Origin: Bacillota bacterium
GTDB lineage: Bacteria; Bacillota; Limnochordia; Limnochordales; ZCTH02-B6
NCBI GenBank assembly: GCA_003387805.1
Contig: QGSR01000013.1
Location: 1-16,190 of the forward strand
Length of the DNA stretch: 16,190 nucleotides
Direction: 5' to 3'
Position 1 is the stretch's first letter; every line of letters begins with the position of its first letter. The position numbers and the translations under genes are program-made. This document shows, piece by piece, positions 5,715-15,945 of this stretch. The notes beneath the pieces were generated by a model, which was given only the letters and a program-made list of their open reading frames with translations, ran no database searches and was not told the DNA's origin.

Positions 5715-6980
5715 TCAGCGGGCGTCCAGGTCCCGCAGCGCTTTCAGCAGTCCGCTGTAGAGCGTATAAAACGTCACCTCGTCCAGCGCCTGCTCGGGGT
5801 TGTTCCAGGTGGCGCTGACGATGTACGGCGTGCCGGAATGGCTGACCACCAGGGTGGTATAGTTCAGCACGCCGGGCTCGGAACCGCCTTTGAACGCGAC
5901 GTAGCTCCAGTCGCCGGGGTCCGCGACGCCCGGGTTGACCGACATGAAGGGCAGGTCGTGCACGTAGGCCATGAGGTTGGCCAGTTCGCCGACGGTGAAG
6001 TACCACTCGACGTCCAGCGCCGTCGGTTCGGGACTCAGGTCGCTCACCGCCGGCAGGGGCCGCCGCGCCAGCTCGGCCAGGAGAGCCCGCCGTCCCGCCA
6101 CGTCGGCGTTCCGCCACGCTTCGAGCAAGTCCTCGTTGCCGGCCGCCTTCAGCACGAAAGCTTCCCGGGTGCTCAACAGCGGCACGTTGCGCGGGGCGTA
6201 GCGTTCCACCGCGGCGCGCCCGGCGGCCCGCAGCAGCGCGTCGGTGGCGGTGTTGTCGCTGATGGAAATCATGAGCGTGGCCAGCGCCTGGACGGTCATG
6301 GGCGTGCCCGGCGGCCAGTCCTGGAGGATTCCCGTCGGAAGGCTGACGTCCTGCTCTTCGAGCACGATGACGTCGCCCCACGACCGCATGCCCGCCGCGA
6401 CCTGATCCTTCAGCGCGGCCAAGATGGCCAGCTTGAACGCCGAGCCCACGGCCAGGGGCGTGTCGGCGTTGACGGCCGCCAGCACGCCGCCGTCGGTGAC
6501 GACGATGAGGCTGACCTGGCCGGGCAGCGTTTGGAAGTCCGCCAGCACCGCGTCCAGCTCCGACGCCTTCGGCTCGGGCGCTCCGAACCAAATGCCGGCG
6601 ATGCGGCCGGCGGAATCCAGGAAAATCTGGGAATCGACGAAGCCCCGCTCGAACTCCAGGCGGAAGAACGGCGCCGTCCCTTCGGCGGCCACGTATGCGC
6701 CCAGCGCGGCCCGGTACTGGCCGATCATGGCGTCCATGACGGCGGGCGGCAACTCAGCCAGGAACATGTCCGTAAACCATTCCGGCTGTACGGCGTCGGA
6801 CGTGAACAGCCGTTCGTACACTTCTTCGGGCGTGACGGCTTGGGCTTGAGCGGACGCGGCGCCCGCGAAGGCGCCCGCCAATGCGCCCGCGCCCACGAGG
6901 CCCATCAGGCACACAAGAGCCCAGGGTGCCAGCCCCCCACGGGGCTGCCGGCTCCCGAGCGGTCGCTTTTGGTTTCTCAC
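5715..6980 (-). CDS. Secreted serine hydrolase, class A beta-lactamase fold with N-terminal accessory domain
   Basis: A 421-residue exported protein. The signal peptide covers residues ~1-46 (Arg-rich start, hydrophobic 18-40, AGAASAQA cleavage area). An N-terminal domain (~50-135) resembles the small NTF2/cystatin-like domains found before some beta-lactamase-like enzymes. The C-terminal domain has the three active-site motifs: S180-x-x-K183 (SAFK), S241-D-N243 (SDN) and K364-G-G (in place of KTG). The order and spacing fit class A beta-lactamases and relatives such as clavulanate-cluster Orf12, which also has a two-domain layout. No clear Glu166-type omega-loop motif was recognised, so true beta-lactamase activity is uncertain; esterase or peptidase activity is possible. 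The GTG at 6980 is chosen because AGGAGGTG lies 5 nt upstream; an upstream GTG at 7025 has no RBS. The gene is divergent from the first Crp/Fnr gene. Confidence 0.85.
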   Translation of the reverse strand: MRNQKRPLGSRQPRGGLAPWALVCLMGLVGAGALAGAFAGAASAQAQAVTPEEVYERLFTSDAVQPEWFTDMFLAELPPAVMDAMIGQYRAALGAYVAAEGTAPFFRLEFERGFVDSQIFLDSAGRIAGIWFGAPEPKASELDAVLADFQTLPGQVSLIVVTDGGVLAAVNADTPLAVGSAFKLAILAALKDQVAAGMRSWGDVIVLEEQDVSLPTGILQDWPPGTPMTVQALATLMISISDNTATDALLRAAGRAAVERYAPRNVPLLSTREAFVLKAAGNEDLLEAWRNADVAGRRALLAELARRPLPAVSDLSPEPTALDVEWYFTVGELANLMAYVHDLPFMSVNPGVADPGDWSYVAFKGGSEPGVLNYTTLVVSHSGTPYIVSATWNNPEQALDEVTFYTLYSGLLKALRDLDAR

Positions 6981-7219: not shown

Positions 7220-7894
7220 GTGGATGAAGAGCCGATGTGGGCGCAAGCGAAACAACTGTTTCCCTTTCTGAACGAAATCCGGGATGAGGACCTGCGGGCG
7301 GGGATCACGACGGCCCGCCTGCCCAAAGGCGCCACCGCGTTCGTCGAGGGCGAGCCGTGCCGGCACGTGGCCTTCGTGCTGGACGGGTCCATCCGGGTGT
7401 TCAAGTCGAACCCCGACGGGCGGGAACTGACGCTGTATCACGTCACGGCCGGCGACTCGTGTGTCCTGATGTGGGCCAGCGTGCTGGCCGACGCCCGCTA
7501 CGGCGCGCAGGCCGTGGCCGCCGCCGACACCGACGTCCTGCTGGTGCCCGTGCCCGTTTTCCAGAGCTGGATGCAGCGCTACGAGGCGGTGCGCCGGTTC
7601 GTGTACGAGGCTTTTGCCCAGCGCCTGGCCGCGGTGATGCTGCTGGTGGACGAGGTGCTGTTTCGCCACGTCGACCAGCGGCTGGCTTCGCTCCTGCTGC
7701 AGCGGACCGGCGACGAGCAGCCCGTGCTGGAAGCCACCCACGAACAGCTGGCCCTGGAGCTGGGCACCGCCCGGGAAGTGGTGAGCCGCATCCTGAAATC
7801 GTTTGAGGAAGACGGCGCCGTCCGGCTGTTCCGCGGGCGCATCCAGGTGACGGACCGCGACCTTCTGGCCCGCAAGCGCGACGGGCGCACGTGA
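7220..7894 (+). CDS. Crp/Fnr-family transcriptional regulator (first)
   Basis: About 224 residues, the normal family size. An N-terminal cyclic-nucleotide-binding-type beta-roll (~33-110) contains GEPCRHVAFVLDGSIRVFKSNPDGREL. A dimer helix follows (~114-148), then a winged helix-turn-helix (~165-212), with THEQLALELGTAREVVSRIL as the HTH. Recognition residues Arg185, Glu186 and Arg190 match the CRP pattern that reads TGTGA/TCACA. There is no FNR-type N-terminal Cys cluster; Cys47 and Cys81 are the only cysteines and might serve redox or NO sensing. GTG 7220 has AGGGTG 7 nt upstream; ATG 7235, in frame, is a fair alternative start. It lies just upstream of the DUF2892 and nirK genes, so it probably controls nitrite/NO genes. 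Its own promoter has no obvious site of the shared type. Confidence 0.9.
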   Translation: MDEEPMWAQAKQLFPFLNEIRDEDLRAGITTARLPKGATAFVEGEPCRHVAFVLDGSIRVFKSNPDGRELTLYHVTAGDSCVLMWASVLADARYGAQAVAAADTDVLLVPVPVFQSWMQRYEAVRRFVYEAFAQRLAAVMLLVDEVLFRHVDQRLASLLLQRTGDEQPVLEATHEQLALELGTAREVVSRILKSFEEDGAVRLFRGRIQVTDRDLLARKRDGRT

Positions 7895-7918: not shown

Positions 7919-7934
7919 TGTAACCGCCGTCACA
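7919..7934 (+). promoter_or_regulatory. Crp/Fnr-type operator before the DUF2892 gene
   Basis: TGTAACCGCCGTCACA is a near-perfect TGTGA-N6-TCACA palindrome. Exactly 21 bp separate it from a -10 box TACCAT (7956-7961), placing it at about -41.5, the class II activator position. There is no -35 box. A lone CGTGA half-site overlaps the regulator stop at 7890-7894. Confidence 0.7.
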
Positions 7935-7955
7935 GACGCTTCGGCCCGCATACAT

Positions 7956-7961
7956 TACCAT
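7956..7961 (+). promoter_or_regulatory. Predicted -10 box of the DUF2892 promoter
   Basis: TACCAT lies 21 bp after the operator. A start of transcription near 7968 would give a ~25-nt leader containing the AGGTGATG ribosome binding site (7981-7988). Confidence 0.5.
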
Positions 7962-7992
7962 ATGGCCAGAATTTTCGGTGAGGTGATGGTTT

Positions 7993-8181
7993 ATGCAGGC
8001 CAACGTCGGAAACGTGGACCGCATCATCCGCATCATCGTCGGCCTGGCGCTGCTGTCGATGCTGTTTCTGGTCGAAGGAAGCCTGCGGTGGGTGGGGCTG
8101 GTAGGGATCATTCCTCTGGCCACCGCCTTCATGCGCTTCTGTCCGCTGTATTCCATCTTTCGCATCAACACGGCCAAGTAA
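7993..8181 (+). CDS. DUF2892 (YgaP-type) small membrane protein
   Basis: A 62-residue protein. It starts with NVGNVDRIIRIIVGLALL, the hallmark of DUF2892 (the YgaP C-terminal membrane domain), and ends with FMRFCPLYSIFRINT, the conserved C-P-L-Y element. There are two membrane helices (~10-28 and ~33-48). DUF2892 peptides occur alone or fused to rhodanese domains and are often near sulfur or nitrogen-oxide genes; their biochemical role is not settled. ATG 7993 has AGGTGATG 4-5 nt upstream. It is preceded by an operator and -10 box of the type shared with nirK, which links it to the nitrite/NO regulon. Confidence 0.88.
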   Translation: MQANVGNVDRIIRIIVGLALLSMLFLVEGSLRWVGLVGIIPLATAFMRFCPLYSIFRINTAK

Positions 8182-8300
8182 AGGCGCAGGCCGGCAACGC
8201 CCGGGAGCCGGCGTGGTGCCGAAACCCGGTGCACGGGCAGTTTCAAATCCTTCTGCCGTTGACGAATGGGTGCGGCGTGACGTGGTGAGCGGAACACCGG

Positions 8301-8326
8301 GACGGTCTTGGCCGCGACGGACCGTC
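8301..8326 (+). terminator. Possible terminator of the DUF2892 transcript
   Basis: A seven-base-pair stem with a 12-nt loop, followed by CTTCC with no long T-run. It is weak, but its position 120 nt after the DUF2892 stop and before the nirK promoter fits. Confidence 0.35.
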
Positions 8327-8443
8327 TTCCGCTGCGTCGGTCGCACTCATTCGCTTATCTAGACCCCGTTTCGGTTTTCCGTTGTCGTCCTCAACTTTCC
8401 CGATCTCCCCGTCTCTCCCGCTCGACGCTGATTTCCCGCCCGG

Positions 8444-8459
8444 TGTGAGCAATATCACG
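8444..8459 (+). promoter_or_regulatory. Distal Crp/Fnr-type operator of nirK
   Basis: TGTGAGCAATATCACG matches TGTGA-N6-TCACA at nine of ten arm positions. Its centre is about -63.5 from the predicted start of transcription and 22 bp upstream of the proximal site. Confidence 0.75.
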
Positions 8460-8465
8460 CGCAAA

Positions 8466-8481
8466 GGGCGCGCGCGTCACG
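8466..8481 (+). promoter_or_regulatory. Proximal (half) operator of nirK
   Basis: Only the promoter-proximal half TCACG (8477-8481) is intact; the left half is degenerate. Its end lies exactly 21 bp before the -10 box, the same spacing seen at the other four promoters of the island. Confidence 0.55.
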
Positions 8482-8502
8482 TCCCCGCCGAGGCCGGTGT
8501 CG

Positions 8503-8508
8503 TACGCT
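8503..8508 (+). promoter_or_regulatory. Predicted -10 box of nirK
   Basis: TACGCT, 21 bp after the proximal operator, with no -35 box at the expected place, as in activator-dependent promoters. Transcription would start near 8515. Confidence 0.5.
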
Positions 8509-8552
8509 CGAAGTGACAACAAAGACGACCTCGCAGGAGGTGTGCGGATTCC

Positions 8553-9626
8553 ATGAAGCGATGGCATCTCGTCGTGTTGCTGCTGGCACTTGTGGCGGCT
8601 TTGACCGCCGGCTGCGGAGGCCTGACCACCGGGGTACGGCAGGAGCCGTCGGCGGCCGCGCCGTCTTCGTCGGCGCAGCCGTCCCCGTCCCAGCCCGCCG
8701 TCGAACCGCCGAGAGATGATGCGGTGCGGGTGGCCAAGGACCCGGCCGACATTCCGCCCCCCGTCGGCGGCCGTGAGCCGCAGCTCGTCAAGGTCGAAAT
8801 GGTGGCCAAGGAGCTGGACGGTCAGCTGAAGGACGGCATCACCTTCACGTACTGGACGTTTGACGGCGTCGTTCCGGGCAAGATGCTGCGGGTGCGGGCC
8901 GGCGACACGGTGGAGCTGACGCTGCACAACGACCCGTCCAGCACGCAGCCCCACTCCATCGACCTGCACGCGGTCAACGGCCCGGGCGGCGGCGCCGAAG
9001 CCACGCAGGTGCTGCCGGGCGAGACGAAGACGTTCCGGTTTAAGGCTATGAATCCCGGCGTTTATGTGTATCACTGCGCGACGCCCTACATCCCGGCCCA
9101 CATCGCCAACGGCATGTACGGCCTCATCGTGGTGGAGCCCGAAGGCGGCCTGCGCCCGGTGGACCGCGAGTTTTACGTGATGCAGGGAGAAATTTACGCG
9201 TCGCTGCGTCCGCATCAGCGGGGGCACGCACGGTTCAGCGATCAGGACTTGTGGAACGAGCAGCCGAACTTCGTCGTCTTCAACGGCCAGTACCAGGCGC
9301 TCACGGGCGAGCACGCGATGCGGGCGCAGGTCGGCGAGACCGTCCGCATCTTCATCGGCAACGGCGGGCCCAACTTGGCGTCGTCGTTCCACGTCATCGG
9401 CGAAATCTTCGACGTCGTCCACAAGGAGGGCGCGTCGGAGGCGTCGACCAACATCCAGACGACGCTTATCCCGGCCGGCGGCGCGGCCTGGGTGGAGTTC
9501 ACGGTCGACGTGCCCGGCGATTACATTCTCGTGGACCACTCCATCAACCGGGCCTCCGGCAAAGGCGCCATCGCCGTGCTCCACGTCGAGGGTCCTGAAA
9601 ATCCGGAGATTTTCGAGGCGCTGTAA
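8553..9626 (+). CDS. nirK: Copper-containing nitrite reductase (NO-forming), lipoprotein
   Basis: A 357-residue enzyme that reduces nitrite to nitric oxide outside the cytoplasmic membrane. It starts with a lipoprotein signal peptide (lipobox LTAGC, lipidated Cys21) and a Ser/Pro/Ala-rich linker (~30-55), followed by two cupredoxin domains. All copper ligands are visible. Type 1: His134, Cys175, His183, Met188 (PHSID, YHCATPYIPAHIANGMYG). Type 2: His139, His174 and His329 (VDHSIN). Catalytic Asp137 (HSID) and His280 (SSFH) are also present. The lipid anchor fits a Gram-positive cell, where the enzyme would otherwise be lost. ATG 8553 has AGGAGGTG 9-10 nt upstream. The cupredoxin gene starts 2 nt after the stop, so the two are co-translated. 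It is preceded by a two-site Crp/Fnr-type promoter, indicating induction by NO, nitrite or low oxygen. Confidence 0.96.
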   Translation: MKRWHLVVLLLALVAALTAGCGGLTTGVRQEPSAAAPSSSAQPSPSQPAVEPPRDDAVRVAKDPADIPPPVGGREPQLVKVEMVAKELDGQLKDGITFTYWTFDGVVPGKMLRVRAGDTVELTLHNDPSSTQPHSIDLHAVNGPGGGAEATQVLPGETKTFRFKAMNPGVYVYHCATPYIPAHIANGMYGLIVVEPEGGLRPVDREFYVMQGEIYASLRPHQRGHARFSDQDLWNEQPNFVVFNGQYQALTGEHAMRAQVGETVRIFIGNGGPNLASSFHVIGEIFDVVHKEGASEASTNIQTTLIPAGGAAWVEFTVDVPGDYILVDHSINRASGKGAIAVLHVEGPENPEIFEAL

Positions 9627-9628
9627 CG

Positions 9629-10153
9629 ATGGCGGCGCGGCGTGGTTCCCGGAGAAGGGCGGCCGGCTTCGTCTTCATGGTCCTGGCGCTGGTGGCCGCC
9701 GCCGTCGTCGCCGCCGGGTACGGATCGCCCGCCGGAGTTTTCTCCGGCGGGCGGCGCCTCCAGCCGGGCGGCGGGGAAGCGGCAGCCGTGTCGATACAAA
9801 TTGCCGGCGTCGCGTGCGGCTCCCACTTGGCCCTGGCGCCCGCCTACATCGAAGCGAAGCCGGGGTCCATGCTTCGCATTGCCAACGAGGGCCTGTGGCC
9901 GCATGAGATCTACCTCAGCACCGAAGACCGGCCGGTCTTGATGAGCGATCCGGAAAGCCGGCGGCGCGTCCTCGCTTCAGTCCGGCTGGAACCCGGGGAC
10001 ACCGGCGAGCTCCCGCTTCCCGACGGACCGGGAGACTACTATCTTGTGCCCGGCAACACGTGGCATTTTCTGTCGGGGCTGCGAGGCCAGGTGCGGGTTG
10101 AACAGCCCGTCGATATGCCCGCCGCCCATAGACGTGCCAACGTCCGGCCCTAA
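9629..10153 (+). CDS. Membrane-anchored cupredoxin-like protein coupled to nirK
   Basis: A 174-residue protein with an N-terminal Arg-rich stretch and one membrane helix (~12-31), a Gly-rich linker, and a cupredoxin-like beta domain (~52-158). The core has the pattern KPGSMLRIANEGLWPHEIYL ... GDYYLVPGNTWHFLSGLRG, which resembles the start and end of blue-copper domains. The usual copper loop Cys-x(n)-His-x(n)-Met near the C terminus is absent: candidate ligands are His92 and His146, with Cys63 and His66 in an early ACGSH element and Met81/Met105. It may bind copper in another way, or be a structural or electron-transfer partner of NirK. The start lies 2 nt after the nirK stop. The fold call is moderate; the function is inferred only from the neighbour. 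Confidence 0.75.
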   Translation: MAARRGSRRRAAGFVFMVLALVAAAVVAAGYGSPAGVFSGGRRLQPGGGEAAAVSIQIAGVACGSHLALAPAYIEAKPGSMLRIANEGLWPHEIYLSTEDRPVLMSDPESRRRVLASVRLEPGDTGELPLPDGPGDYYLVPGNTWHFLSGLRGQVRVEQPVDMPAAHRRANVRP

Positions 10154-10235
10154 GGCCCGCCGTCCGCAGCACCCCGCCCGAACGAGCCGGACGCGCCCTG
10201 CCGCCTTGCGACAGCCATGCGAAATGCGAAAATTG

Positions 10236-10244
10236 TAGTATGAT
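10236..10244 (+). promoter_or_regulatory. Possible -10 box of the second Crp/Fnr gene
   Basis: TATGAT (10239-10244) matches TATAAT at five of six bases and lies in the only AT-rich patch of the 156-base gap, after a direct repeat of ATGCGAA (10217-10230). There is no good -35 and no shared operator at the usual distance, so this promoter appears to be controlled differently. Confidence 0.4.
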
Positions 10245-10309
10245 GGATGCGTGGAAACTGCCGCCGGCGGGGCGCCGTCGCGCCGCGGGCGTGGGGAGGC
10301 GCAGCGACC

Positions 10310-11005
10310 ATGGGCTTGGCCGGCCAGCCGCTGGAAATCCTCAAGAGAATCCCGTTCTTCGCGCAGCTCGCCCCGGCGGAGCTGGAGGCGCTGGCGGAGG
10401 CCGTGGTGGTGGCCCGCTATCGGAAAAACCAGGTGCTTTTCGTCGAGGGCGAGCCCAGCCACTCCCTGTACTTCATCTGCCGGGGCCGGGTGAAAGTGTA
10501 CCGCGTGTCCCCCGACGGCCGCGAGCAGATCTTGCACCTGCTGGGGGACGGCGACCCCATTTCCGTGGTGCCGTTTTTTGACGGCGACCCGTATCCGGCC
10601 AACGCGGAAGTGCTGACCGATTCCGAGATCGCGTTCATTCGCTTCGAAGACTTTGAGCGCATCGCCCGGGCCAATCCCGGCATTTTGCTGCAGATGCTGC
10701 GCGTTCTCGCCCGCAGGCTGCGCCGGGCGCAGGAAGAGATCGCCTCCCTGGCGCTCAAGAGCGTGGCCGGCCGCATGGCGGCCCGCTTGCTGGAGCTGGC
10801 CGAGCGCCAGGGGGAGCTGGTGGACGACGGCATTCAGATTGACCTGAAGCTGAGCCGCCAGGAGCTGGGTCACCTCATCGGCGCCTCGCGCGAAACGGTG
10901 ACGCGCGTGCTGCACCAGTTCCAGCGGGAAGACGCCATTCGCATCGACGGCTCCCGCATCGTCATCCGCAAACCGCTCATTCTGCAGTCGTGGAGCGAGC
11001 AGTAA
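10310..11005 (+). CDS. Crp/Fnr-family transcriptional regulator (second)
   Basis: A 231-residue protein with the full family layout: a sensory beta-roll (~30-115, with FVEGEPSHSLYFICRGRVKVYRVSPDGREQ), a long dimer helix (~117-150) and a winged HTH (~155-220). The recognition helix in LSRQELGHLIGASRETVTRVL has Arg194, Glu195 and Arg199 as in E. coli CRP, predicting TGTGA/TCACA half-sites. It has a single Cys (57), so no FNR-type iron-sulfur cluster. ATG 10310 is chosen because GGGGAGG lies 10 nt upstream; the frame extends back to an ATG at 10247, but that part is Arg-rich, overlaps the presumed promoter and is not family-like. It lies between nirK and a DUF2249 gene whose promoter carries such sites, so it is a strong candidate for the island regulator. 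It could sense heme-NO or a nucleotide. Confidence 0.92.
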   Translation: MGLAGQPLEILKRIPFFAQLAPAELEALAEAVVVARYRKNQVLFVEGEPSHSLYFICRGRVKVYRVSPDGREQILHLLGDGDPISVVPFFDGDPYPANAEVLTDSEIAFIRFEDFERIARANPGILLQMLRVLARRLRRAQEEIASLALKSVAGRMAARLLELAERQGELVDDGIQIDLKLSRQELGHLIGASRETVTRVLHQFQREDAIRIDGSRIVIRKPLILQSWSEQ

Positions 11006-11025
11006 GCCCCTCGGGTGCGGACTTC

Positions 11026-11041
11026 CGTGAGCAAGATCACA
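11026..11041 (+). promoter_or_regulatory. Distal Crp/Fnr-type operator of the plus-strand DUF2249 gene
   Basis: CGTGAGCAAGATCACA matches TGTGA-N6-TCACA at nine of ten arm positions. It shares its first spacer bases (GCAA) with the nirK distal site. Its centre is about -64.5. Confidence 0.75.
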
Positions 11042-11048
11042 CCCCGTC

Positions 11049-11064
11049 TGGTGCACTGGTCACG
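11049..11064 (+). promoter_or_regulatory. Proximal (half) operator of the plus-strand DUF2249 gene
   Basis: The right half TCACG (11060-11064) is perfect and the left half is degenerate. It is 23 bp from the distal site and exactly 21 bp before the -10 box. Confidence 0.55.
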
Positions 11065-11085
11065 GTGCCGGGGCGCGTTTTCGCG

Positions 11086-11091
11086 TACTCT
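11086..11091 (+). promoter_or_regulatory. Predicted -10 box of the plus-strand DUF2249 gene
   Basis: TACTCT, 21 bp after the proximal operator, with no -35 box. Transcription would start near 11098, giving an ~80-nt leader. Confidence 0.5.
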
Positions 11092-11180
11092 GTGGGTAGA
11101 CCGCGACAGGGGCGCCCGGCCCGGTGCGGGTGCGCGGTGACCGTCGCAGTGATGACACGGTCGAAAAGGGGATGATCGTC

Positions 11181-11432
11181 ATGTCTGCTCAGTCGCAGCC
11201 GGTCTTGCAATTGGACGTGCGGGACGTTCCGCCGCGGGAGCGGCACCCCCGCATTTTCGAGATTCTGGACGGCCTGGCCGCCGGGCAAAGCCTGGAGCTG
11301 ACCAACGACCACGATCCGAAGCCGCTCTATTACCAGATCCAGGTCGAGCGGCCCGGCCAGTTCGGCTGGGACTACTTGACCGAGGGACCGGACGTATGGC
11401 GAGTGCGCATTACCCGGATTGGGGAACGGTAG
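11181..11432 (+). CDS. DUF2249 domain protein
   Basis: An 83-residue cytoplasmic protein that is almost entirely one DUF2249 domain. The signature elements are LDVRDVPPRERHPRIFEILDGL, the NDHDPKPLYYQ segment with two His/Asp pairs that could bind metal, and a closing GPDVWRVRITR. Proteins of this family are frequent in denitrification and NO-stress loci, often alone or fused to hemerythrin or DUF59 domains; the molecular function is unproven. ATG 11181 is chosen because AGGGG lies 9 nt upstream; ATG 11172 abuts that sequence and is unlikely. It has its own operator-controlled promoter, separate from the regulator gene before it. A second DUF2249 gene faces it at 11541. Confidence 0.88.
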   Translation: MSAQSQPVLQLDVRDVPPRERHPRIFEILDGLAAGQSLELTNDHDPKPLYYQIQVERPGQFGWDYLTEGPDVWRVRITRIGER

Positions 11433-11540
11433 ACGCCGGGCGTGCCACTCAGTCCTCAGGTTTGGCGGGGTTTGGCGGGCGAGCCCGAGTTCCCGGACGC
11501 GCCCGCCGACGCCGCTCGCCGGGCTTGGTGGCCTTGCCCC

Positions 11541-11795
11541 TCATGGCCTGGCGGTTGACGGGTCTTTCGCTTGTATGCGGAAAAACTTGACGCGCCAATG
11601 CCTCTCTTCGATCTCCTCGGCCTCGTGCCGGAAGCCTTGGGCGGCCAGTACGTGATACAGGGGCCGCGGCTCGAACGGGGCGATGAGAACCAGCGCCTGG
11701 CCGGGCGCCAGCCGCCCGACGGCCGCCATGATTTTTGGAAACGGCTCCACGCCGCGGCGCAGGTCGTCTCGTACATCCAGCACCAGTGGTTCCAT
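11541..11795 (-). CDS. DUF2249 domain protein (second, divergent in sequence)
   Basis: An 84-residue protein with the DUF2249 pattern LDVRDDLRRGVEPFPKIMAAV, then LAPGQALVLIAPFEPRPLYHVLAAQGF and a Trp-x-Val strand near the end. Compared with the plus-strand copy, the NDHDPKPLYY motif is replaced by APFEPRPLYHV, so one putative metal-binding His-Asp is lost and a Glu and a later His take its place. This subtype is often next to redox membrane proteins. ATG 11795 has GGAGGTG about 8 nt upstream. It follows the 12-TM protein by 22 nt on the same strand, so the two form an operon. Confidence 0.85.
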   Translation of the reverse strand: MEPLVLDVRDDLRRGVEPFPKIMAAVGRLAPGQALVLIAPFEPRPLYHVLAAQGFRHEAEEIEERHWRVKFFRIQAKDPSTARP

Positions 11796-11817
11796 CAGAC
11801 ACGCACCTCCGACCGTC

Positions 11818-13140
11818 TCAGCGAAACAGCGTCCACAGCAAGTTGCCGGCGGCCAGCGCGGCCCCCAGCCCCAAGAGAGCGAGGAACGGGCCGGCGGGCC
11901 AGGCCGTCACCAGCGCCAGGGCCGTGCCGACGACGCCGGCATGGTACACGGCGAAGGCGGCCCAAGCCAGCGGCTGATGGATCATGTCCCGAAACGCCGG
12001 GACGCCGGGCTCACGTCCCCGCCCCCAGTAGCGGTTGTGCCACACGATGAAGGGCAAAATGCGGTGCAAGTAGCCGAGAATGGTGCTGGAGAGCCAGCCG
12101 GCCGCGGCCAGAAAACCCAGGGCCGTCAGCCACGAGGGCGCGGGCCGGAAGCCTGCCGCGGGCAGGCATGCCAGCATCGCCAGCAGCACGGCGCACAAGG
12201 CCAGGTACGCGTGGGCCGCCCGCACGTGGCCCACGGCCGGATGCATGCGCTCGGGCCCTCGGCGGGCGTACAGGCCCCGGGCGTCCCCCACGAACAACGC
12301 GCAGGCCGCCGCGACCGCCAGCCCGGCGGCGCCGGTGACCAACGGGGTCCCCGTCGGAGTGCCGGCACCCCGTCCCAACGACGGCAACGACGCGGCGACG
12401 ATGCCCAGGACGACGCCCGCATGGAGCAGGCGGCGCACCGCCGCCGGCCGGCGAAACTCCCGGCGTTTGTCGACAAACCCAAAGAACGTCAGCAAGTGAT
12501 ATGAGATGCCGATGACGAGCATCAGGAACCATCCGCCCGCCGCCGCGCCCACGTGCGCGGCGAACGTGGCCCGCCACGCGGGCAGCAGCCAGCCCGTAGT
12601 CAAGTTGACGGCCAGCGCCGCCCCGGCGAGAAAAGCGATGAGAAGATATACGCCCGAAGCGTGCACGAAGGGGCGGATGAGCGCCCCTCTTGCCGTCGGC
12701 TGCGCCGTCCGCAGCGTGAGGGTGACGTTTGCCAGAACCATCATGGCGCCCAGCGGCAGGCCCGCCGCGGCGGCGAACAGCGCGGGCCGGGCGACTCCCG
12801 CCCGCGACAAGGCGACGAATCCCGTGATGAGACCGGCCAGGCCCAGGGCGTACGGCACGAACGCGGCGCGGGCCAGCCTGGTGCTGTGCAGAACGGTGGC
12901 GTACACGACCGCGACCATCTGCTGCAGCGCGCCCAACGCCACGGCGCTGCCCCAGCCCAAGGCGTAAAGATGCACCGCCGCCAGCACCAGCGGATGCCGG
13001 TACGCGCCCGCATCGAGCCGGCCCGCGGCGGCCAGGAGTACCCACGGGACGGCCGCAAACGACAGCAAGCCCAAAATGAAATAGGGCGCCAGGGCGGGGA
13101 GGGCGACCAAGTTTTCCCGGGTGACGCGCACGTTGACCAT
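11818..13140 (-). CDS. Polytopic membrane protein, heme-copper oxidase subunit I / NnrS-like
   Basis: A 440-residue protein with about 12 membrane helices. Histidines fall in or next to helices at 57 (AAVHLYALGWG), 196 (AAHVGAAAGGW), 215 (GISYHLLTFFGF), 310, 359 and 368 (GYLHRILPFIVWHNRYWGRG) and 400. The first (HLYALGWGSAVALGALQQ), third and LHRILPFIVWHNRYW motifs are typical of short membrane proteins in thermophilic denitrifiers that are often labelled cytochrome oxidase subunit I-like or NnrS-like. It lacks the HPEVY and full HH pairs that bind CuB in true oxidases, so a bona fide NO reductase is unlikely; heme or NO handling is the best guess. ATG 13140 has a weak GGTGG about 5-6 nt upstream. 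It forms an operon with the DUF2249 gene 22 nt downstream. Confidence 0.75.
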   Translation of the reverse strand: MVNVRVTRENLVALPALAPYFILGLLSFAAVPWVLLAAAGRLDAGAYRHPLVLAAVHLYALGWGSAVALGALQQMVAVVYATVLHSTRLARAAFVPYALGLAGLITGFVALSRAGVARPALFAAAAGLPLGAMMVLANVTLTLRTAQPTARGALIRPFVHASGVYLLIAFLAGAALAVNLTTGWLLPAWRATFAAHVGAAAGGWFLMLVIGISYHLLTFFGFVDKRREFRRPAAVRRLLHAGVVLGIVAASLPSLGRGAGTPTGTPLVTGAAGLAVAAACALFVGDARGLYARRGPERMHPAVGHVRAAHAYLALCAVLLAMLACLPAAGFRPAPSWLTALGFLAAAGWLSSTILGYLHRILPFIVWHNRYWGRGREPGVPAFRDMIHQPLAWAAFAVYHAGVVGTALALVTAWPAGPFLALLGLGAALAAGNLLWTLFR

Positions 13141-13151
13141 GGTTCCACCGT

Positions 13152-13262
13152 CCCGTGGCTCGACTTTCTGTGGCTCTGGCTTCCCGTGGCTCGACCTTCC
13201 CGTGGCTCAGCCTTGCCGTGGGTCGGCCTTCCCGTGGCTCCGCCTTCCCTTGGGTGCGGACG
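13152..13262. repeat. 16-bp tandem repeat, about seven copies
   Basis: Units run head to tail at 13152, 13168 (15 bp), 13183, 13199, 13215, 13231 and 13247. The consensus is CCCGTGGCTCNRCCTT; the four central copies differ at only a few bases, the outer ones more. It sits directly before the start of the minus-strand 12-TM gene, in its untranslated leader. The unit length is not a multiple of three and no coding frame is convincing. Confidence 0.8.
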
Positions 13263-13280
13263 GGTTTGTGCCCACTCTTT

Positions 13281-13332
13281 CGACGATTGTGTCATCCGGC
13301 CTGCCAATCGGGCAGGCCGGAGGAAATCGTCG
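13281..13332. other. Two-tier hairpin between nuoI-like and 12-TM genes
   Basis: The outer stem CGACGATT (13281-13288) pairs with AATCGTCG (13325-13332). The inner stem CCGGCCTGCC (13296-13305) pairs with GGCAGGCCGG (13311-13320) around an AATCG loop. Both stems are perfect, separated by 7-nt and 4-nt internal loops. It lies 66 nt after the nuoI-like stop. There is no T-run on either strand, so it is an RNA structure of unknown role: partial terminator, processing site or stabiliser. Confidence 0.65.
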
Positions 13333-13397
13333 CCGCCGGGCCGTATCGCGTTCCGGCAGCCGGCGGCGTCTCCTCTGCGAAAGATCGGCCAAGGGAA

Positions 13398-14087
13398 TTA
13401 CTCGGCCGGGGCATTATCCGGGGCCTGATACTGCAGGTCGGGCCGCGGCGGGAAGATGTTGTGGGGCTCTTCCCGCTCTTCCCAAACGGCGTCCCGCTGC
13501 AGGCTCAAGTACGGATTGAAGCGGGTGCCGGTGATGACAGCCGCCGGATGGCGGCCCAGCGCCGCCAGGCGCTCCTTCGTGTACACGAACCGCTCGTCTC
13601 CCGCGGTGCGCCCGGGAAAGCCGCCGTCGAACCGCTCCTTGTCCAGCTCGACGGGCACGGGTTCGCCGGCGGCGGCTTCAGCCAGCTCGTACACGTCCGA
13701 CATGGCCAGCGCCTCGTACGGGCACGCTTCGGCGCACAAACCGCAGTAGAGGCACAGGCTGGCGTCAAGATTGTACAGCCGCAGCGCCCGGCCCGTGTTC
13801 GTGTTGTTGCCCACTTCCTCCGGGCGGGCCGTTTTCCGGTCGACCTTGTCCCACCCAATGGTGATGCACTCCACCGGACACGCCCTGGCGCACAGCTCGC
13901 AGGCGGTGCAGTTGAGAATTTCCGTCCCGGGCCGGCTGAGCAGGACCGGCAGGCTGCGCTCGCCCCGCACCGTCACTCGCCGCTCCTCCGGGTAGTGCTG
14001 CGTGATGGTGGGACGGAAAAAGTTGACAATGGTAACCCACATCCCGCGGCCGATGGACGCCGCCGTGTCGAAGAATTGTCGGGTCAT
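13398..14087 (-). CDS. nuoI: NuoI-like 2x[4Fe-4S] ferredoxin protein
   Basis: A 229-residue protein like subunit I of NADH:quinone oxidoreductase. The N-terminal amphipathic part ends with the NuoI signature FFRPTITQHYPEE (~23-35). Two cluster motifs follow: C60-x2-C63-x2-C66-x3-C70P and C112-x2-C115-x2-C118-x3-C122P, each expected to bind a [4Fe-4S]. The C-terminal ~100 residues are longer than in short NuoI proteins and contain no further Cys. ATG 14087 is chosen; AAAGGGGTG lies 12 nt upstream, and TTG 14093, 6 nt after it, is a possible alternative, while GTG 14102 is too close. No other nuo genes are present, so this is an orphan that may carry electrons to a neighbouring redox protein rather than complex I. 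Its promoter has the shared operator layout. Confidence 0.87.
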   Translation of the reverse strand: MTRQFFDTAASIGRGMWVTIVNFFRPTITQHYPEERRVTVRGERSLPVLLSRPGTEILNCTACELCARACPVECITIGWDKVDRKTARPEEVGNNTNTGRALRLYNLDASLCLYCGLCAEACPYEALAMSDVYELAEAAAGEPVPVELDKERFDGGFPGRTAGDERFVYTKERLAALGRHPAAVITGTRFNPYLSLQRDAVWEEREEPHNIFPPRPDLQYQAPDNAPAE

Positions 14088-14173
14088 ATTCAATCGGGAC
14101 ACCCCTTTCGCCGGCCGGCCGGGCCGTTCCGGAAGCTGGCCGCGGAAAACTTAAGGCGCTTAACCTCGTCCTC

Positions 14174-14179
14174 AGCGTA
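14174..14179 (-). promoter_or_regulatory. Predicted -10 box of the nuoI-like gene
   Basis: TACGCT on the minus strand, identical to the nirK -10 box, lies exactly 21 bp from the proximal operator at 14201-14216. Transcription would start near 14167. Confidence 0.5.
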
Positions 14180-14200
14180 CCAACGCCGGGAGCGCAAGGA

Positions 14201-14216
14201 TGTGACCGCCGGAGCG
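14201..14216 (-). promoter_or_regulatory. Proximal operator of the nuoI-like gene
   Basis: Read on the minus strand, the promoter-proximal half TCACA is perfect and the distal half is degenerate, as at nirK and the plus-strand DUF2249 gene. Its centre is 23 bp from the next site. Confidence 0.55.
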
Positions 14217-14223
14217 GGGCCGA

Positions 14224-14239
14224 CGTGATCTTCGTCACG
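14224..14239. promoter_or_regulatory. Central Crp/Fnr-type operator 1 of the divergent region
   Basis: CGTGATCTTCGTCACG is a perfect palindrome in its arms (CGTGA/TCACG). It is distal for the nuoI-like gene (about -64.5) and also upstream of the DUF59 gene. Confidence 0.8.
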
Positions 14240-14245
14240 CGGAAA

Positions 14246-14261
14246 CGTGAGCGCCGTCACG
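14246..14261. promoter_or_regulatory. Central Crp/Fnr-type operator 2 of the divergent region
   Basis: CGTGAGCGCCGTCACG has perfect arms, 22 bp centre to centre from operator 1. It sits at about -63.5 for the DUF59 promoter. Confidence 0.8.
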
Positions 14262-14267
14262 GGGCGC

Positions 14268-14283
14268 CGTTGCATGCATCACG
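14268..14283 (+). promoter_or_regulatory. Proximal operator of the DUF59 gene
   Basis: CGTTGCATGCATCACG has the right half perfect and three of five left-half bases matching. It is 22 bp from operator 2 and exactly 21 bp before the -10 box. Confidence 0.65.
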
Positions 14284-14304
14284 GGTGACGGGCTGTCGTC
14301 GTGC

Positions 14305-14310
14305 TACAAT
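14305..14310 (+). promoter_or_regulatory. Predicted -10 box of the DUF59 operon
   Basis: TACAAT matches TATAAT at five of six bases, 21 bp after the proximal operator, with no -35 box. Transcription would start near 14317, giving an unusually long leader of about 230 nt. Confidence 0.6.
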
Positions 14311-14316
14311 TTCGAC

Positions 14317-14548
14317 AAACGGTTCATCCGATTAATCATGTCTCCCGTGTTTCCCGCTCCGGGGGCTCGCGCTGGTGCGGACGCTTTGGAGCGCCCGCCG
14401 TCGAGCCCCGGCGGGCCCGGGTCCGGCCTTGCCGCCGCACAAACGCAGACCGGCAGGCCCCGACCGGCCCGGGTCCGGCTCTGCCGCCAAGCTGGCGCGC
14501 CGGCCGCGGGCACGTCCTGCGGCCGGCGGTTTGCTGGGAGGAAACGCC
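14317..14548 (+). other. Long structured leader of the DUF59 operon, with direct repeat
   Basis: It contains a 23-bp direct repeat (14414-14436 and 14466-14488, two mismatches, period 52) and a hairpin GCCCGCCG/CGGCGGGC (14393-14400 with 14409-14416). The frames here are open but Arg/Ala/Pro-rich and not family-like, so I treat the stretch as untranslated. GGGAGG (14536-14541) is the ribosome binding site. No known riboswitch class was recognised. Confidence 0.5.
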
Positions 14549-14866
14549 ATGTCACTGGTCTCGCATGAAGAACGCATCCTCGACGCTTTGCGAGCAGTCA
14601 TCGATCCCGAGCTGGGCGTCAACGTTGTCGACTTGGGGTTGGTGTACAGCGCCGTGGCGCTGCCCAACGGCGACATCGCGGTGCAGATGACGATGACGAC
14701 GCCTTTGTGTCCCCTGAGCGCGCACTTGCGGGCCGAGGCGCAGTCGGCTCTGCGCCGGGCCTTTCCGGACGTCCGGGTCATCGACGTGCAGATTGTATGG
14801 GAGCCGCCTTGGGACCCGTCCATGATGTCCGATCGCGCCCGCCGAGCGCTGGGCTGGCGGGAGTGA
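14549..14866 (+). CDS. DUF59 (MIP18/SufT/PaaD-type) iron-sulfur assembly protein
   Basis: A 105-residue cytoplasmic protein made of one DUF59 domain. It has the family pattern RAVIDPELGVNVVDLGLVY (DPE at 19-21), then the QMTMTTPLCPLSAHL segment in which Cys54 is the conserved Cys of the domain, and a closing IVWEPPWDPSMMSDRARRALG. Relatives help to build or deliver iron-sulfur clusters (SufT, MIP18) or act in phenylacetate oxygenase assembly (PaaD). Here the nearest likely client is the two-cluster NuoI-like protein encoded divergently under the same operator block; this link is inferred. ATG 14549 has GGGAGG 7 nt upstream. The stop lies 5 nt before the NnrS-like start (or overlaps a GTG at 14863), so the two are coupled. 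Confidence 0.9.
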   Translation: MSLVSHEERILDALRAVIDPELGVNVVDLGLVYSAVALPNGDIAVQMTMTTPLCPLSAHLRAEAQSALRRAFPDVRVIDVQIVWEPPWDPSMMSDRARRALGWRE

Positions 14867-14871
14867 GCGTC

Positions 14872-15945
14872 ATGCCCCGTCGCTCCCGATGGATTTTGGT
14901 TCTGCTTCCGGCCGCGCTGGCGCTGCTGCTGCTCGCCGCCTGGGCCGGCCTCGTCCGCATGGGATGGGAATGGCCGCTGTCGCGGCGGCTGGCGCTGCTC
15001 CACGGCCCGGTGGTCGTTTCCGGGTTTCTCGGCACCGTCATCGGCCTCGAGCGGGCGGTGGCCTTCCGGCGCCCATGGGCCTACGGGGCCCCCGCCGGCG
15101 CCGCCGTCGGCACGCTGCTGCTGGTTACGAACGCGGCGCCGGGCCCGGGCCTGCTGGTCCTGGTGGGCGCGAGCATTGTTCTTTGCCTGGTCTATTTCCT
15201 CGCGTACCGGCGCCAGCCCGCTTCGTTCACCGCCGTCATGGGGCTGGGCGGGGCGTGCTGGCTGGCGGCCAACGTGCTGTACGCCGCGGGCCGGCCCGTG
15301 CACGTGGCGGCCCTTTGGTGGATGGGGTTCCTGGTCCTGACCATCGCCGGCGAGCGCCTGGAACTGAGCCGCATGGTCCCCCGAAGCCGGGGAAGCGAGA
15401 CCGTGTTCTTGGCGCTTGCGGCCGTCTACATCGCGGCTCTGGTCCTGGCACTCTTCGCTTACGGACCCGCCGGACGGCTGGCGGGCGCCGCCTTGCTGGG
15501 TTTCACCTTGTGGTTGTGGCGTTACGATGTGGCCCGGCTCACCATCCGCAGGGAGGGCCTGACTCGTTTCATCGCAGCAGGCTTGCTGTCAGGCTACGTG
15601 TGGATGACCGTCGCCGGCGTGCTGCTGATTGCGTTCGGCGGCGTGCCGGCGGGGCTCATCTACGACGCCCAGCTCCACGCCGTGTTCATTGGTTTCGTCT
15701 TCTCCATGATCTTCGCCCATGCCCCCATCATCCTGCCGGCGCTGAGCGGCCTGGCCGTCCCCTACCACGGCCGCTTCTACGTACACCTGGCGCTGCTCCA
15801 CGTTTCGCTGGCGGTCCGCATCGCGGGTGACCTCCTGGCCCTTCCGGACGTGCGCCGCTGGGGCGGCCTGCTCAATGCCGCGGCCATTCTCCTCTTTTTG
15901 TTCAACACCGCTTGGGCGGTGCGACGGGGACGGCGCACGGCTTAG
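14872..15945 (+). CDS. NnrS-like polytopic membrane protein
   Basis: A 357-residue protein with 10-12 membrane helices. Motifs are LHGPVVVSGFLGTVIGLERAVA (His44), FLVLTIAGERLELSRMV (~153-169), and LHAVFIGFVFSMIFAHAPIILPAL with His269 and His283, followed by His299, His305 and His310. These motifs recur in NnrS and NnrS-like heme/copper membrane proteins tied to nitric oxide metabolism in denitrifiers; NnrS protects against NO stress. ATG 14872 has GGGAGTGAG just upstream; GTG 14863, overlapping the preceding stop, is an alternative. It is translationally coupled to the DUF59 gene and shares its operator-controlled promoter. The last codons and stop lie in a 27-bp tandem duplication. Confidence 0.78.
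   Translation: MPRRSRWILVLLPAALALLLLAAWAGLVRMGWEWPLSRRLALLHGPVVVSGFLGTVIGLERAVAFRRPWAYGAPAGAAVGTLLLVTNAAPGPGLLVLVGASIVLCLVYFLAYRRQPASFTAVMGLGGACWLAANVLYAAGRPVHVAALWWMGFLVLTIAGERLELSRMVPRSRGSETVFLALAAVYIAALVLALFAYGPAGRLAGAALLGFTLWLWRYDVARLTIRREGLTRFIAAGLLSGYVWMTVAGVLLIAFGGVPAGLIYDAQLHAVFIGFVFSMIFAHAPIILPALSGLAVPYHGRFYVHLALLHVSLAVRIAGDLLALPDVRRWGGLLNAAAILLFLFNTAWAVRRGRRTA

Follow-up and report, generated by a model that had tools for sequence, protein, structure and literature searches.

Tandem Crp/Fnr-type operators upstream of nirK and neighbouring genes in a Limnochordales genome: a putative nitrite/NO regulon

Introduction

In class II promoters controlled by CRP or FNR in Escherichia coli, the operator is centred at −41.5; in the accessible part of an FNR study (PMC3688515), 19 of the 23 activated promoters with a known start have their site no more than 4 nt from this position, and 89 % of the direct-regulon peaks contain one FNR site. 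According to Rodionov et al. (2005; PMC1274295, accessible part), HcpR of the Desulfovibrio type responds to nitrite and nitric oxide (NO), recognizes the palindrome wTGTGAnnnnnnTCACAw and carries R180 and E181, residues which these authors linked to the operator bases G3 and A6. The same part of that paper describes an FNR-type box for DNR, TTGATnnnnATCAA (TTGAT-N4-ATCAA), and a CRP-like site in redox control in the Firmicutes (T. tengcongensis Crp2). Two CRP sites 28 bp apart have been described at cydA of Mycobacterium smegmatis (PMC7739888, accessible part). Here we describe the promoters of a nirK locus in a Bacillota bacterium of the order Limnochordales (assembly GCA_003387805.1), which also encodes two Crp/Fnr regulators, Reg1 and Reg2. 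The locus occupies one entire contig of 16,190 nt (QGSR01000013.1, C222), which was analysed at full length and is referred to as the window; the assembly (G000) comprises 2,368,537 bases in 454 contigs and is an estimated 91 % complete.

Four promoters of the window, those of nirK, a DUF2249 gene, a ferredoxin gene and a DUF59 gene, carry a perfect distal operator followed by a proximal site of which only the downstream half is intact, and are referred to as tandem promoters. The −41.5 position is that of the E. coli class II promoters, from which the locus differs in having a perfect second operator 22–23 bp upstream and a half-degenerate site at −41.5. The CRP-like palindrome and the R180/E181 pair are shared with HcpR, the core targets of which are hcp and frdX, whereas the genes served here are nirK, DUF2249 and the genes for DUF59 and membrane proteins (no search was aimed at hcp). 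DNR, NNR and NnrR are likewise Crp/Fnr proteins in control of nir genes, but the box found here is CRP-like (GTGA-N6-TCAC) and not of the FNR type of DNR; nor does the spacing of 22–23 bp correspond to the 28 bp of the M. smegmatis cydA tandem. At the Bacillaceae locus L120 (Pallidibacillus) two operators stand 23 bp apart and 21 bp before TACGTT, close to DUF2249 (65 %) and nirK (38 %) genes, although both of these operators are perfect palindromes. A literature search, in which subscription journals were thinly covered and which is therefore weak evidence of absence, returned no Crp/Fnr tandem of 22–23 bp in which the −41.5 site is half degenerate and no account of such a regulon in Limnochordia. 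Both the class II promoter and, from HcpR, the CRP-like operator for nitrite/NO control are already known, and the tandem layout is a variation on them. We propose that Reg2 probably activates the tandem promoters, as a small nitrite/NO regulon, by a cooperative class II mechanism in which the distal site is occupied first, the promoter at 7919 being separate and under Reg1.

Promoter architecture

The original prediction, made from the letters of the window alone, had assigned to five promoters a 16-mer resembling YGTGA-N6-TCACR that ends exactly 21 bp before a TACNNT −10 box. The positions of all five 16-mers, boxes and gaps were correct to the base, and the stronger upstream copy reported for four of the five was also recovered. 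At nirK (plus strand) the distal operator TGTGAGCAATATCACG (8444–8459), which matches all positions of a 10-position consensus, lies 22 bp upstream of a proximal operator at 8466–8481 that matches six positions and has an intact downstream half; the candidate −10 is TACGCT (8503–8508). The DUF2249 promoter (plus strand) consists of the distal operator CGTGAGCAAGATCACA (11026–11041, 10/10), a proximal operator 23 bp further on (11049–11064, 7/10) and the candidate −10 TACTCT (11086–11091). Two such promoters diverge between the ferredoxin and DUF59 genes. On the minus strand the distal (14224–14239, 10/10) and proximal (14201–14216, 7/10) operators are 23 bp apart and precede the candidate −10 TACGCT (14174–14179); on the plus strand CGTGAGCGCCGTCACG (14246–14261, 10/10) and the proximal operator (14268–14283, 8/10) are 22 bp apart, with TACAAT as candidate −10 (14305–14310). 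This divergent promoter is an array of four phased operators, the second of which is the minus-strand distal site, with steps of 23/22/22 bp here and 23/22/23 bp in the related genome G001. No distal copy was found at the fifth, DUF2892 promoter, where a single plus-strand operator TGTAACCGCCGTCACA (7919–7934, 9/10) stands 21 bp before the candidate −10 TACCAT (7956–7961).

The description of the proximal 16-mers held for their TCACR half, which is perfect, but the upstream half is degenerate in the four tandem proximal sites, which makes them weaker than had been claimed. A −35 box was indeed lacking at the four tandem promoters, the best match to TTGACA at spacers of 15–19 being 1–3 of 6 (the 7919 promoter lies outside that scoring). 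If TACNNT is the −10 box and is placed at −12 to −7, the proximal sites are centred near −41.5 and the distal ones at −63.5 or −64.5, and the 21-bp gap found at all five promoters corresponds to the arrangement of class II promoters activated by Crp/Fnr proteins. The identical gap had been said to define the operator; judging from the E. coli FNR comparison (PMC3688515, accessible part) it is rather the usual class II position, and the 22–23 bp tandem with its half-degenerate proximal site is the more telling feature.

The shared layout is not a product of chance. On both strands of the window, 43 TCACR and 26 TACNNT motifs formed 11 pairs at gaps of 5–60 bp, with a gap of 21 in five, 43 or 44 in four, 16 in one and 18 in one, and none of 500 dinucleotide-preserving shuffles reached five pairs at any gap, in line with the earlier judgement on the identical spacing. 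Nor were such site/−10 pairs as common elsewhere in the genome: TCACR-N21-TACNNT occurred seven times in the assembly (reversed-pattern control, four), and five of these were the reported promoters on this 16-kb contig. GTGA-N6-TCAC occurred 27 times, including four times on this contig, against two for its reversed control.

Conservation and occurrence in other genomes

The family is represented by five genomes, G000 and its relatives G001, G002, G003 and G004; G009 belongs to another family of the same order. The window and loci L066–L082 were scanned for a distal operator, TCAC and TANNNT, the two distances being free to vary over 19–26 and 16–25 bp. All 10 cases obtained had spacings of 22/23 and 21/22 bp and a box beginning with TAC. 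Five were from the own genome (nirK, DUF2249, DUF59, ferredoxin and a promoter on contig C113) and three from G001 (DUF2249, DUF59 and the ortholog of the membrane-protein gene at 11818–13140); the others preceded DUF2249 in G004 and nirK in G009. In alignments of the DUF2249 and divergent promoters, the distal site, the TCAC half and TACNNT stood out as conserved blocks in otherwise diverged intergenic DNA. The conservation that had been named as a check extended to DUF2249 and to the pair of DUF59 and membrane-protein genes as well as to nirK, but was incomplete at nirK, where half of the relatives compared were without the layout. Among these eight relatives (nirK matches of 39–74 %), an operator matching 9–10 of the 10 positions and lying 43–44 bp upstream of TANNNT was seen only in G001, G004 and G009. 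At nirK of G024 the distal site is 65 bp from TACGCT, with TCACT 21 bp before the box (by eye), and the DUF2249 gene of G005 has a lone palindrome 21 bp upstream of TATCGT (counted by eye).

With the spacing left free (GTGAN6TCAC-N{8,28}-TCAC-N{12,34}-TACNNT; 483 possible spacing pairs), 52 matches were found in 37 of 120 genomes; the reversed control gave 32, with none in G000, G001, G004 or G009. The 10 matches from these four genomes (five, three, one and one, respectively) all had gaps of 18–19 and 22–23. None of the 37 scored among the remaining 42 (33 genomes) showed these gaps, the other five being too long (80–83 bases). The fifth match of the own genome, on contig C113, lies upstream of a MarR-type gene and a membrane-protein gene. 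With this further member of the same layout the putative regulon is not self-contained, contrary to what had been proposed. The membrane protein of the C113 member (L068 3357–5597) has 460 amino acids, and its COX1/CcoN match is partial and under the cut-off.

A version of the pattern lacking TCAC was scored by the distance from the distal site to TACNNT, and 13 of the 23 matches from G000, G001, G004 and G009 fell at 44–46 (2.2 expected), a bin picked after the window had been seen. The fairer figure is that without the own genome, eight of 14, with a binomial P of about 1e-5 if the matches are independent, which some are not; this P is approximate, since the bin was post hoc and a few matches overlap. 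The five other relatives with nirK gave six of 37 matches at 44–46 (3.6 expected), and the reversed control gave five matches in the nine genomes.

A public scan for the tandem layout returned at least 117 stretches, 80 of which were available for follow-up. About the same number is expected by chance, and therefore only a follow-up in 24 more distant genomes, four of them Bacilli, counts as evidence on generality; its loci were chosen by hand from the 80 for spread. This follow-up gave 45 matches (reversed control, six), 24 of which were the selecting hits. Three of the other 21 were on spacing (0.17 expected), two in Terriglobia/Acidobacteriales genomes and one in Chthonomonas. The tandem layout may therefore extend beyond this lineage, though Rex-like sites contaminate the set.

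Candidate regulators

Both regulators of the window, Reg1 (219 amino acids; 7235–7894, plus strand; recognition helix AREVVSR; best PDB sequence match 3dv8) and Reg2 (231 amino acids; 10310–11005, plus strand; SRETVTR), were confirmed to carry the R-E-x3-R recognition helix that had been reported. When Reg2 was aligned with 59 relatives, R194 and E195 were present in 60 of 60 sequences and R199 in 58. The window operators carry G3 and A6, matching the R180/E181 rule, and the view of the operator as CRP-like, not FNR-like (TTGAT), was upheld by the GTGA-N6-TCAC sites and by the recognition-helix arginine at the R180 position.

On these sequence comparisons Reg2 is most likely the activator of the tandem promoters. 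Within the family, G000, G001 and G004 have both Reg2 (77 % in G001 and G004) and the layout, and G002 and G003 have neither. In G009 two regulators of the RE type adjoin the two DUF2249 genes and are divergent from them, the DUF2249 promoters lying in between. Named Reg2 homologs at 63–79 % identity include Limnochordales and Limnochorda. A search with Reg2 returned three Crp/Fnr proteins in its own genome; the third (contig C211, L072), with the helix PESLSR, is disfavoured as the binder. This helix is FNR-like, and another frame of the same contig resembles a metal-transporting P-type ATPase (by reading).

The predicted structure of Reg2 had a predicted local distance difference test score (pLDDT) of 90.0 and a predicted template-modelling score (pTM) of 0.66. 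Neither cyclic AMP (cAMP) nor an iron–sulfur (Fe–S) cluster is a likely ligand, judging from the aligned residues. The PYPANA motif of Reg2, the Pro and Ala of which are kept in 56 and 60 of the 60 sequences, aligns with PRTSSA of Mycobacterium tuberculosis CRP, whose Arg-Ser pair we take to belong to the cAMP phosphate pocket; this pair is missing from Reg2 at the aligned position. Fe–S FNR proteins have three to four cluster cysteines, and Reg2 has only one, present in 25 of the 60 sequences. Bacillus subtilis Fnr, which has a CRP-like site, carries an Fe–S cluster, whereas the single cysteine of Reg2 is unconserved. The family consensus DGGPYPANAE resembles the sensor domains of DNR/NnrR.

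The five promoters had been regarded as a single regulon, from which the one at 7919 now stands apart: a distal copy is lacking, G001 and G004 do not have its gene pair at the shared locus, and it is assigned to Reg1. The gene that it precedes (7993–8181, plus strand; PF11127) encodes a DUF2892/YgaP-like transmembrane protein. Only one of 59 relatives searched, G002, has a close Reg1 ortholog (75 %), which is again followed by DUF2892; the gap between the two genes contains the 16-mer base for base, including the core, with TATCAT at 22 bp. The operator at 7919–7934 was given to Reg1 because the identical 16-mer accompanies this gene pair in G002, and the DUF2892 promoter would thus be a class II promoter with one site, controlled by Reg1 and distinct from the tandem set. 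Two distant Reg1 relatives, in G054 (38 %) and G059 (35 %), are followed by a DUF302-like gene instead of DUF2892 (by reading), and a palindrome shorter by one base lies 21 bp upstream of TATACT and TATAAT (by eye). At loci L293 and L294, which hold distant relatives of Reg1, the palindrome has a five-base core, TGTGA-N5-TCACA, and lies 21 bp from the −10, upstream of a DUF302-like gene (by reading).

Proposed mechanism and alternatives

In the mechanism proposed for the tandem promoters, a Reg2 dimer would first occupy the perfect distal palindrome, centred at about −63.5/−64.5, and would help another dimer to settle on the weak site at −41.5, of which only one half is intact. The 22-bp step is close to two helical turns, and the two dimers would therefore sit side by side on one face of the DNA. 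The proximal dimer would recruit RNA polymerase, in class II fashion, to a −10-only promoter (TACNNT without −35). We infer activation rather than repression, as well as Reg2 as the binder and the order and cooperativity of binding; the signal would be derived from NO or nitrite.

Several findings speak against this proposal. G005, G015, G020 and G033 are without the layout at nirK, which slightly weakens the proposal, and the most similar NirK proteins (G015, 70 %; G020, 74 %) come from among these genomes. The proximal half at nirK of G001 and G004 is TCATC, not TCAC, with the distal-to-−10 distance kept at 44 and 43 bp, respectively, and at both DUF2249 genes of G009 the proximal site keeps its upstream half instead of the downstream one; the proximal site is therefore not strictly conserved. 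As to the regulator, H76 of Reg2 is kept in 44 of the 60 sequences and the alignment picked out no inducer-binding residue. The closest solved structures to the Reg2 model are cAMP-type CRPs, neighbours which reflect the fold and not the ligand. Reg1, with its R-E-x3-R helix, could also bind the same half-sites.

The helix common to both regulators, together with TCACR at exactly 21 bp in all five promoters, would fit a single regulon whose sites either regulator, or both interchangeably, could occupy. Such an arrangement is unlikely, given that the distal site exists at four promoters only, that the 16-mer of the 7919 promoter recurs downstream of the Reg1 ortholog of G002, a genome without a Reg2 ortholog, and that Reg2 accompanies the tandem sites in G001 and G004, which have no close Reg1. 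Alternatively, the distal palindrome might be the sole operator, acting in a class I-like manner from about −63.5 or as a repressor site, with an incidental proximal TCAC. In its favour, loss of TCAC at nirK of G001 and G004 and at DUF2249 of G009 leaves the distal-to-−10 distance unchanged, and the upstream halves of the proximal sites match on average 1.7 of the four GTGA bases (1.0 expected); yet the TCAC-to-box distance, although left free at 16–25, was 21–22 in all 10 instances, five of the 11 unconstrained window pairs had a gap of 21, and the distal position is 2–3 bp off the canonical class I position of −61.5. We consider a distal-only operator quite improbable.

A fixed spacing without a −35 box could also point to TCACR-N21-TACNNT as the promoter element of a special sigma factor. 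We regard this as very improbable, with TCACR sitting inside a Crp-type palindrome that has a phased second copy and with the element missing at both DUF2249 genes of G009; in addition, sigma factors are not known to use a spacer of this kind. Operators of Rex (TTGTGAA-N4-TTCACAA; PMC2883068, accessible part) fit GTGA-N6-TCAC too, and some matches of the public scan are Rex-like (e.g. L155), but GTGAA-N4-TTCAC is present in none of the four distal sites of the window, the inner bases of which rule out this identity and leave it scarcely credible.

Gene products and other sites

Assignment of nirK (8553–9626, plus strand) to the copper nitrite reductases was based on TIGR02376 (349.7 bits, cut-off 296.3). 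The gene behind it (9629–10153, plus strand) encodes a small cupredoxin-like protein, the sole match of which, to plastocyanin, is weak (E 0.041); there was no Pfam match. The DUF2249 protein behind the tandem promoter (11172–11432, plus strand; PF10006, 110.6 bits) has a second representative (70.3 bits to PF10006) encoded by the final gene of the minus-strand cluster (11541–11795). Upstream of this gene in the cluster lies that of a membrane protein with 12 long helices (11818–13140, minus strand). A fold search gave strong matches to the heme-copper oxidase/NO reductase fold, which is accordingly the predicted fold of this protein, although searching the PDB with a profile of its family returned nothing meaningful (best E 0.43). 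In a PF00115 search of the own genome, an assembly 91 % complete, only two COX1 matches were above the cut-off (contigs C392 and C387, read as caa3- and ba3-type), and neither is an obvious NO reductase. The minus strand also carries a NuoI-like 4Fe-4S ferredoxin gene (13398–14102), the product of which has an extra C-terminal part. Matches to relatives with E <1e-10 cover only residues 5–165 or so (up to 56 %); the C-terminal part has no counterpart in those relatives, and there was no match at the G001 locus.

On the plus strand, the gene for a DUF59/FeS_assembly_P protein (14549–14866; PF01883) has a long leader in which a GC-rich stretch occurs in two near-copies (14390–14485, by reading). 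The membrane protein encoded next (14872–15945, plus strand; 71 % identity in G001) had been called NnrS-like, a label that Pfam and NCBIfam do not support, neither giving a significant match. Scans of the window with Rfam (gathering threshold) and for tRNAs found nothing.

Two further sites were noted on other contigs of the genome. On C104 a perfect TGTGA-N6-TCACA (L067 6272–6287) lies 28 bp before the likely start of nuoA (gene by reading), with a 9/10 operator copy farther upstream (L067 6188–6203) and no tandem layout; these sites may connect complex I with a Crp/Fnr protein. On C210 (L071, about 6039–6075) a near-perfect inverted repeat of 15 bp (GGTGAAAGyGGTCAC) enclosing 7 bp precedes an NDH-2-like gene (by reading) and looks like the operator of another regulator.

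Implications

Under control of the tandem promoters by Reg2, a lineage that has not been grown gains a concrete and testable nitrite/NO regulon, together with a promoter signature that can be searched for in genomes (distal operator + 22/23 + TCACR + 21 + TACNNT). The grouping of DUF2249, DUF59 and the membrane protein of predicted heme-copper fold with NirK narrows their possible functions. The architecture also poses a mechanistic question, namely whether a perfect distal operator combined with a crippled −41.5 site makes a cooperative switch. As a tentative and rather doubtful generalization, the asymmetric tandem could be used repeatedly by Crp/Fnr regulators of the non-cAMP kind, in which the distal site nucleates binding and an obligatorily weak −41.5 half-site, at a distance of two helical turns, gives the cooperative switch; in Limnochordia-type Firmicutes it would govern denitrification genes, including that of the heme-copper-fold protein, which may consume the NO produced by NirK.

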